Assembly: GCF_024298845.1 (NCBI RefSeq)
Contig: NZ_CP101156.1
Span: 806,001-870,000, forward strand
Origin: Natronosalvus amylolyticus
Lineage (GTDB): Archaea > Halobacteriota > Halobacteria > Halobacteriales > Natrialbaceae
DNA length: 64,000 bases
Direction of reading: 5' to 3'
In this document: positions 47,899 through 49,893 of the stretch, in pieces
How positions within the stretch are numbered: position 1 is the first letter of the stretch
How the letters are laid out: every line of letters starts with the position of its first letter
Translations under genes and position numbers: made by a program
Notes under the pieces: model-generated
What the model saw: only the letters and a program-made list of their open reading frames with translations
The model's database searches: none
Told to the model about the DNA's origin: nothing

Positions 47899-48942
47899 TC
47901 AACAGATTGAGTAGATATTGGATTCGTACACCGTCCGGACCTGGTCACCCCAGTCGTGGGTATAGGTGTCGATGATATCGCTCGCGACGTCGCCACGAAG
48001 GTACTTTACAACGCCTCTATCACCCGTTCTATCCCGCAAATGCGTCGTGAAAAAGTGCCTGAAGTAGTGCGGCGTCACGTTTTCGCTCGCCCCACCACCG
48101 GTTCGGTACCAGCCCTGCTCTCGAGCGTGTCGTTCGACGATATACCGAATGTCGGAAGGCTCGAGACGGTGTCCCCAGTCCCCGCCTGTATCGACGAAGA
48201 GGGGGTCAGCCGGCGAAACCGGGTCAGGACGGATCGCGAGCCACTCGAGGAGGACTGTCGCAACCTCCTGATCAACGGGAATCACCGTCTCTCGCTTGCG
48301 TTTGTTCGATGCAGACCGCTTTTCTCCGTTGTAGACGGACCCGCGTGCCGGTTTCGAATCCACGTACAGCGATTGGGGCCGGCTCTCGAGGGCGACCCTG
48401 GGAGTCCAACCCAGGTCGAGGCCGAACTGATCAGCGTCGACGTGGAGGTCACGCAGATCCAGATTGCAGAGTTCACCCACACGAACGCCGGTTTTGAGCA
48501 GTGTCACGACGACTGCTCGCTCGAGTGGATGGGTAATCTCGTCGACGAAATCCCGCATTTCAGGTATCGATATCTCTCGTCGAGTCGGATTCGTGTCGAT
48601 GGATTCGCCCATCTCTTCCATGACCAGCGCCATCGGGTTCCCCTCGAAGGCTTCGACGCGCGTCATGTACTCGTAAAACCGATGGACGTAGGACGCATAC
48701 GAGGCGATTGTACTGCTCTCACGCCGCCCTCGCAACGAGTGGACCCAGGCCATACACTCTCGGCGCGTCGCGTCTGCCGGGGTCGACTCTTCTGCACGAA
48801 CGAAGGTCTCGAACTGTCGGAGTACCCGTTCGTAGGCGTCGATGGTCCGTTCGGATTTCCCGTGATAGCGTTGCTCCTCGAGGAAGTACGCGATGGGATC
48901 GTCGATAGTTGTCCCATCCTCGACGCCGGATTCAGTCGCCAT
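47899..48942 (-). CDS. Tyrosine recombinase / integrase
   Basis: This 347-aa protein has an amino-terminal SAM-like core-binding domain (residues 15-110) and a catalytic domain with R154 (TGVRVGELC), box II H292-x-x-R295 (PHYFRHFF) and the nucleophile Y327 (IDTYTH). The usual box II His/Trp of LGH appears as Asp (YLRGD), a variation to note. It is of XerC/XerD-like haloarchaeal type and probably serves an integrated element. It follows the RHH-like gene after a 2-base gap on the same strand, so both are one operon. Confidence 0.92.
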   Translation of the reverse strand: MATESGVEDGTTIDDPIAYFLEEQRYHGKSERTIDAYERVLRQFETFVRAEESTPADATRRECMAWVHSLRGRRESSTIASYASYVHRFYEYMTRVEAFEGNPMALVMEEMGESIDTNPTRREISIPEMRDFVDEITHPLERAVVVTLLKTGVRVGELCNLDLRDLHVDADQFGLDLGWTPRVALESRPQSLYVDSKPARGSVYNGEKRSASNKRKRETVIPVDQEVATVLLEWLAIRPDPVSPADPLFVDTGGDWGHRLEPSDIRYIVERHAREQGWYRTGGGASENVTPHYFRHFFTTHLRDRTGDRGVVKYLRGDVASDIIDTYTHDWGDQVRTVYESNIYSIC

Positions 48943-48944
48943 CG

Positions 48945-49370
48945 TCAGACATCACCGCCAACGTAAATGTACCCGCCATCGCGCCCGCTGTATCGAACCT
49001 GGTCCTGGCTTTGTAGCGAATCGAGCGCATCCTCGAGTTGTGTTTCGATATCGTCACTGACCGCCTCGAGGAGTTCATTCCAGGAGTATGTTTCTGAACG
49101 AAGCAACTCGAGGACCTGTGTTTCGAGACCGCTACCCCCAGGGGTAGCGTCCGGAGAAGGGGGTTGCTCAGATGACGACTCGAACCCATTTCGACCCGCT
49201 TGTACCATACTTCTGACAAACTCACTTTGGCTCATATCGAGATCCTCAGCGTGTGATTCCCAGGCTTCTTTCTGGTAGGCAGGGACGTACGTTCTGACGA
49301 CGACAGTCTCCGTGTCGGGATCGTCGGGCATGGATGAGAGTTCTAACTCCGTGACCTTCACTTTTGCCAT
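48945..49370 (-). CDS. Ribbon-helix-helix-like DNA-binding protein coupled to the recombinase
   Basis: This 141-aa protein has an Arc/MetJ-like segment at residues 22-60 (ETVVVRTYVPAYQKEAW, LDMSQSEFVRSMVQAG), a Ser/Pro/Gly linker and a carboxy-terminal winged-helix-like part (SWNELLEAV, LEDALDSLQSQDQVRY, DGGYIYVG). From memory, proteins of this layout often precede haloarchaeal integrases. A perfect palindrome between its TATA box and start suggests it represses itself and the recombinase. It could also be a directionality or accessory factor for recombination. Confidence 0.85.
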   Translation of the reverse strand: MAKVKVTELELSSMPDDPDTETVVVRTYVPAYQKEAWESHAEDLDMSQSEFVRSMVQAGRNGFESSSEQPPSPDATPGGSGLETQVLELLRSETYSWNELLEAVSDDIETQLEDALDSLQSQDQVRYSGRDGGYIYVGGDV

Positions 49371-49374
49371 GATT

Positions 49375-49404
49375 CGAGATAAAAGACCTTATCTCGATTT
49401 ATAG
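49375..49404 (-). promoter_or_regulatory. Palindromic operator and TATA box of the RHH/recombinase operon
   Basis: CGAGATAA-aagacc-TTATCTCG (49375-49396) is a perfect inverted repeat with 8-bp arms. It is five bases from the ATG (49370) and directly next to a TATA-like CCTATAAAT on the minus strand (about 49396-49404), which is about 30 bases from the start. A protein bound here would block transcription initiation. Confidence 0.65.
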
Positions 49405-49746
49405 GACCACACAACGAAGCTAACTAGACCCATTAGTCGGGATATCGTGTATAAAATGACTGCGAGTCGAGATACAATTCATTCAAAGGTAAGTATGCCA
49501 GTTGAGATATTATTTAGATTGTAATCACAAGACGTTCGAGAGCAGAAACCCAGGCACAGGTCAGGTTTGTGTGCTTGGGCTTGTTGACAGCAAAAGCGAG
49601 CGTCGCTCACTGCGGCCAGACCGTTCCCTGTACTAGCGGAATTATCTGAAAATCCTCATAACGCACGTGACGATGAATATCCCTGTATAGCGGTCCTGGA
49701 AAACGAGCTAATTTCTCCCTGTACCCAGGAACGACTTCCAACGATC

Positions 49747-49830
49747 TATAGTAGCCAGTGACTCGATTTACACACCTATCGCGACGCTGTATTGCGATAG
49801 GGTGTGCAATGACGTTCACTGGCTACTGTA
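49747..49830 (+). repeat. 84-bp hairpin element (MITE-like), copy B
   Basis: TATAGTAGCCAGTGA at the left and TTCACTGGCTACTGTA at the right form the outer stem; CACACCTATCGC and GCGATAGGGTGTG form the inner one. It is the same length and orientation as copy A, with high identity over its whole length. It is in the gene-free region behind the recombinase operon's promoter. Confidence 0.85.
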
Positions 49831-49847
49831 GTGGCTTCCCAACCAGT

Positions 49848-49893
49848 ATCCGTGGGTGAATGCAAGCGGTGCGATTCGATTTTACCCACGGAT
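49848..49893. repeat. Perfect 10-bp inverted repeat with 26-base loop
   Basis: ATCCGTGGGT (49848-49857) and ACCCACGGAT (49884-49893) are exact inverted copies. The right arm runs straight into the 18-bp dispersed motif. The structure starts 17 bases after hairpin element B. It may be a terminus of an unrelated insertion sequence. Confidence 0.55.

Follow-up and report, generated by a model that had tools for sequence, protein, structure and literature searches.

A palindrome beside a tyrosine recombinase operon is probably a dif-like site of the Halobacteria

The 64,000 nucleotides of Natronosalvus amylolyticus considered here (NZ_CP101156.1, positions 806,001 to 870,000; the window) carry on their minus strand a gene for a DUF5805 protein and one for a tyrosine recombinase, and just before the first of these lies a palindrome (Table 1). 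It is a perfect inverted repeat at 49374-49397, with 9-bp arms TCGAGATAA and TTATCTCGA on either side of a 6-base spacer. The initial annotation was right about its perfection and its spacer, but the arms are 9 bp long, not 8. Read on the minus strand from 49399 to 49372, the perfect part, 9+6+9, is embedded in a sequence of form 11+6+11. Allowing up to 3 mismatches, the palindrome matches the window once, against 0.02 matches expected from dinucleotide shuffles, and in its exact form it is present as a single copy in the 4.2-Mb genome. A search of the genome allowing 2 mismatches finds ten further places, against three for a reversed-pattern control, a small excess. Elsewhere in the window, within a gene-poor stretch of 2 kb, there is an imperfect inverted repeat of 31 nt (49746-49831; 74% complementary, 24 nt apart) that resembles the remnant of a small non-coding mobile element of the MITE kind, and a second inverted repeat lies near it, at 49848-49893.

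Table 1. Features of the locus, in coordinates of the window
Feature	Position	Strand	Basis
XerA-like tyrosine recombinase of 347 aa; follows DUF5805 directly	47899..48942	-	Phage_integrase 3e-15
DUF5805 protein (PF19121); 128 aa when counted from the conserved, probable start	48945..49331	-	Pfam 1.6e-26
Stretch between site and likely start; matches the GGGNTAGATTGAAG box of relatives, degenerate here	49332..49371	-	Comparison with relatives
Probable dif-like recombination site, 11+6+11, AATCGAGATAA-GGTCTT-TTATCTCGAAT	49372..49399	-	Sequence, conserved dyad, four relatives with elements inserted there
Spacer GGTCTT, 6 bp, where the crossover is predicted	49383..49388	-	Length constant, sequence variable in relatives
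Upstream half-site-like repeat 1, right-arm type, degenerate	49431..49449	-	Sequence; similar clusters in relatives
Upstream half-site repeat 2 (CGAGATA near 49474)	49461..49479	-	Repeat family D1; clusters in relatives
Upstream half-site repeat 3	49496..49514	-	Repeat family D1; clusters in relatives

Where the palindrome lies relative to the operon depends on where DUF5805 begins. In the sister genome of N. hydrolyticus, whose DUF5805 protein is 96% identical, ATA stands in place of the ATG at 49370, and in an alignment the start codon of relatives falls on the ATG at 49331, which is probably the true start. The TATAAA at 49398-49403 is likewise without conservation in relatives. The palindrome had been placed between TATA box and start; with both of those landmarks unconserved, it is probably to be placed upstream of the likely start, at a distance of about 43-66 bp. 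Between dyad and start, most relatives have a box, GGGNTAGATTGAAG, placed some 25-38 bp ahead of the conserved ATG. The promoter of a haloarchaeal leaderless transcript would stand just there, and by its position the box is a probable promoter of this kind. It is strongly conserved across families of the class Halobacteria and is not a standard haloarchaeal TATA box.

The DUF5805 protein combines an N-terminal ribbon-helix-helix (RHH) with a C-terminal winged helix, as judged by alignment and an AlphaFold model. RHH proteins are among the best fold matches to it in the PDB, though the matches are weak, and a search of the PDB by sequence found no relative. The suggestion that the first gene encodes an RHH-type candidate DNA binder thus holds up. 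Of 125 genomes of the family 123 have the protein, as do 240 of 242 of the class, it is absent from all non-haloarchaeal control genomes, and the open literature library searched contained no paper on it. The recombinase gene lies directly downstream in every one of 134 loci, the window included. The two genes form a chromosomal core operon found throughout the class, not the operon of a mobile element. Some genomes (G094, G034, G065, G066, G078, G057) have a second, shorter gene, consisting of the winged-helix part of DUF5805 alone, divergent and just upstream of the operon, and in loci such as L113, L106, and L119 the dif-like site thus lies between two DUF5805-type genes.

The recombinase resembles XerA without being a standard member of that group. 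Against the XerA model NF040815 it scores 120.9 bits (E 6.7e-35), below the curated cut-off of 220 bits, and no protein in 59 haloarchaeal genomes rises above that cut-off. In some haloarchaeal genomes other recombinases score higher as XerA than does the one linked to DUF5805. The best PDB fold matches of its model (pTM 0.58) are the archaeal XerA structures 4a8e and 5hxy, with E about 2e-9. Residues R154, K214/K216, H292, R295, and Y327 are invariant amongst 23 aligned sequences, and the third residue of box II, usually His or Trp, is Asp318 in all 23 haloarchaeal orthologues, so the catalytic set R-K-H-R-H/W-Y is incomplete at the H/W position. The protein is therefore XerA-like by fold and falls outside the strict XerA equivalog. 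I use the names XerA-like and dif-like because a system that works in the manner of Xer/dif is at issue while the equivalog cut-off is missed.

If the palindrome matters to this operon, then it should recur upstream of orthologous gene pairs, as the initial annotation had suggested, and it does. A TAA-N6-TTA dyad precedes DUF5805 in 102 of 128 distinct loci, against a mean of 1.4 (maximum 6) in dinucleotide shuffles. In 83 loci the spacer has 6 nucleotides, and each other length from 2 to 11 occurs in at most one locus. Its sequence takes 49 distinct forms among 107 dyads, beginning with a purine in 106 and ending with a pyrimidine in 104. The arms vary jointly by clade: GAGATAA is paired with TTATCTC or TTAGCTC, CAAATAA with TTATTTG, CAGCGGATAA with TTATC.GCTG, and CCGGATAA with TTATCCGG. 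Outside the family, dyads with covarying arms are found in seven other families (f2, f3, f4, f6, f7, f8, f9).

Eight genomes of two genera (clade C) have no dyad close to the promoter. Theirs lies 278-367 bp upstream of the gene instead of about 68 (loci L111, L120, L124, L127, L128, and L133 of genus g2, L099 and L100 of g7). Shuffled stretches of 800 bp contain such a dyad with a probability of 0.023 each, and none occurs in 127 coding control stretches. The site is therefore separable from the promoter and need not be an operator. Where the dyad has moved away, the DUF5805 start has another palindrome close by, AACCCC-N-GGGGTT, whose flanks are conserved. The idea that this palindrome replaces the site in clade C was dropped, since the dyad was later found further upstream; possibly it is the real operator of the g2 and g7 loci.

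Then there is the evidence of natural insertions. Four relatives carry an element between two site copies with a common spacer. Two Natrinema-type genomes with an altered left arm have, by comparison with relatives whose site is empty, inserted DNA exactly at the dyad. The 1.6-kb insert of genome G064 lies between CCAACATTG-ACTCAC-TTAGCTCG and GATAGAGATAA-ACTCAC-TATGATC, and the 13-kb insert of G077 between GCATTG-ACTCAC-TTAGATCG and CTCGACATAA-ACTCAC-TTATCTCGG. In G064 the two partners share nothing but ACTCACT, so the crossover took place within the spacer. The other two occupied sites were spotted by the unrelated block of sequence upstream: G074 has a 38.9-kb insert between CTCAGAGATAA-ATATAC-TTAGCTCG and CTCGAGATAA-ATATAC-TGTTCTG, and G019 carries two copies of a 37-kb element in tandem, 99.9% identical, whose three junctions all have the spacer AATCCC. 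These insertions thus make recombination at the site evident, with crossovers in the spacer, and I regard it as very probable that the palindrome is a recombination site.

The elements of G074 and G019 are proviruses of tailed viruses, with portal and tail genes and with terminases of two different types. Neither the search of whole genomes with PF00589 nor that of the main ORFs with PHROGs finds an integrase in them. Both searches were needed, for PF00589 missed a short integrase in G077 that PHROGs found. A very divergent integrase is possible, but the lack of a recognizable one implies that a host enzyme inserted these proviruses. They are inserted in a dif-like site and have no recombinase of their own that could be found, as is the case with IMEX. 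The G077 element (L146, 1536-14640) has a compact integrase of 202 aa (phrog_1/216) adjoining the junction, and because it does, its insertion may have been independent of the host enzyme and need not involve it. Both proviruses (G074, L156+L208-L209; G019, L212-L213) carry an Orc1/clamp-loader-like ATPase (phrog_7998), to which that of G019 adds a large helicase (phrog_10371). Replication as plasmids is possible for both. Amongst the haloarchaeal viral contigs of IMG/VR, none contains the exact site patterns tried. Five exact matches in IMG/VR were set aside as chance, all of them on contigs of 30-43% GC and in unrelated context.

The place of the site on the chromosome can be judged in complete genomes, with the type A orc1 gene (N-terminally extended, one of two conserved orc1 genes) as the marker of the origin. 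In 32 chromosomes the site lies at a median of 159 degrees from this gene, and at 140 degrees or more in 30 of the 32 and in 18 of 19 genera, although within this family these distances are not independent of each other, as the region is syntenic and cysS is a neighbour of the site. In the present genome the distance is 179.4 degrees. Nine genomes of other families, where cysS serves as a good control for position, put the site at 151-178 degrees and cysS at 39-166; radA, at 11-48, is near orc1 and uninformative. If orc1 marks the origin, then the site lies in the terminus region opposite.

The palindrome does not stand alone. The initial annotation had noticed partial half-sites further upstream, and they are real: three imperfect repeats, all in one orientation, are spread over about 49431-49514. 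In clade A, half-sites of the right-arm type are concentrated around -50, -80, and -115 relative to the dyad, and clade B has half-sites near -90 and -45. They resemble the arms of their own genome. Right-arm half-sites in clade A match their own arm 55 times and that of the other clade 29 times; the corresponding figures in clade B are 21 and 4 for the right arm and 26 and 8 for the left. Since half-sites match the arms of their own genome best, whichever protein recognizes the arms probably binds upstream as well, so far as sequence can tell. Such binding would fit accessory sites for synapsis or for regulation.

I propose that the palindrome is the dif-like core site of an Xer-type system that Halobacteria carry on the chromosome, and that it resolves dimers beside the gene for its own recombinase, a reading that I consider likely. 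Each 11-bp arm would bind one monomer of the neighbouring recombinase, the presumed enzyme at this site, and cleavage of the strands would fall at either edge of the 6-bp spacer. Recombination between two such sites, for example in a dimeric chromosome, would then release monomers. DUF5805, with its two DNA-binding folds, would most likely bind the flanking repeats and help or control synapsis, and regulation of the operon may be a further task. The insertions speak for recombination and not for dimer resolution, and that resolution is the main role of the site is a good probability. That DUF5805 is an accessory factor of the recombinase is about an even proposition. A bolder and more tentative model, which I would put below that, supposes a resolution module contained in a single locus: dif and its array of half-sites, an Xer recombinase of the Asp type, and DUF5805 licensing resolution in place of the missing FtsK, the whole parasitised by tailed viruses that lack integrases.

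Regulation might be added to this role without displacing it. The recombinase or DUF5805, sitting on the dyad and the half-sites, could also control the adjoining promoter, to which the dyad is closely spaced in most clades, and the upstream half-site array does co-evolve with the arms. In clade C, however, the dyad is far from the promoter, and AACCCC-N-GGGGTT stands near the gene instead. Autoregulation besides the dif-like role is a serious possibility that falls somewhat short of even, and so does the dual use of the one site.

It is less easy to suppose that regulation is all there is. On this account DUF5805, through its RHH, represses its own operon by binding the palindrome and the half-sites upstream. 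The dyad does lie about 40-70 bp before the start and beside a conserved box in most loci, the protein has two folds fit to bind DNA, and the half-sites fit the arms of their own genome better than those of the other clade. But an operator should stay by its promoter, and in eight genomes the dyad is 278-367 bp away. A spacer held to 6 bp while its sequence varies is typical of recombination, elements cross over inside it, and an operator leaves the location opposite orc1 unexplained. The distant sites and the crossovers led me to reject the operator as the main function, and I regard it as improbable. What stands of the original reading is that the dyad is a selected site of protein binding, and DUF5805 may be among the proteins that bind it. 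The switch it was thought to operate, an autoregulated one for excision and integration of an element, is not needed and finds no support, given the class-wide presence of the gene pair, the Xer-like geometry of the site, the insertions within its spacer, and its distance from any promoter in the eight genomes.

Nor is it probable, and here I would be more doubtful still, that the site is nothing but a hot spot for integrases of mobile elements, with the recombinase next door occupied otherwise. Elements are indeed found there in four genomes, one with an integrase of its own. Yet a passive target would not be expected to keep such geometry in genomes that are empty, to be conserved beside a recombinase throughout the class with covarying arms, or to lie opposite orc1, and two of the proviruses have no recognizable integrase. 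As for an RNA hairpin in the operon leader, acting as attenuator or terminator, the covarying arms are compatible with a stem, but the idea is rejected as hardly credible, because the loop is constantly 6, the inner TAA/TTA is invariant, the crossovers are in DNA, and a leaderless transcript would start from a likely promoter downstream of the site.

The dif-like reading can be set beside systems already known. Recombination is proven at the dif site of Pyrococcus abyssi, ATTGGATATAA-TCGGCC-TTATATCTAAA (PMC2958812), to which the arms of the palindrome are identical at 16 of 22 bases. The Thermococcales system (PMC2958812) shares with the present one a 28-bp site with 11-bp arms, a 6-bp spacer, and inner ATAA/TTAT, as well as a single recombinase of XerA fold and a site far from the origin. 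It differs in that its dif is away from xerA, whereas the haloarchaeal site adjoins the recombinase gene, and the haloarchaeal enzyme is divergent (below the XerA cut-off, with Asp in place of the third His/Trp) and invariably accompanied by DUF5805. In Sulfolobales, dif is predicted near the xerA gene (PMC2958812), a point of likeness, but it lies away from termination zones (PMC7776575), whereas the haloarchaeal site is antipodal to orc1, and no DUF5805 partner is reported. Streptococcal XerS/difSL and epsilon-proteobacterial XerH/difH (PMC2731167, PMC5357621) likewise link a single recombinase to dif in one module, though with recombinases of other lineages, other site sequences, and no RHH/winged-helix partner in the operon. 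IMEX such as the vibriophages that use XerCD/dif (PMC4246890, PMC5357621) resemble the haloarchaeal proviruses in lacking an integrase, residing in dif, crossing over at its centre, and forming tandem copies; the archaeal elements differ in being 37-39 kb and akin to tailed viruses, with an enzyme that is presumed. Finally, the N-terminus of DUF5805 has the helix pattern of RHH autoregulators like CopG and NikA, but DUF5805 adds a winged helix and is coupled to a recombinase. Linkage of a recombinase to its dif is thus already on record for Sulfolobales, streptococci, and epsilon-proteobacteria (PMC2958812, PMC2731167); the novelty, within the open literature library searched, lies in the haloarchaeal version, the DUF5805 protein that goes with it, and the proviruses that use it.

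Haloarchaea were not treated by Cortez et al. (2010). A review of 2020 credits Haloferax volcanii with many XerC/D-like genes, considering both a role in termination and the location of dif undetermined (PMC7776575), and no paper in the open literature library searched describes a haloarchaeal dif site. The present reading assigns a single site, recombinase, and partner to the class Halobacteria as a whole. It offers a hypothesis for the function of DUF5805 and identifies an integration site used by haloarchaeal proviruses that lack an integrase, and with it the resolution of dimers in polyploid archaea with multiple origins becomes directly testable.
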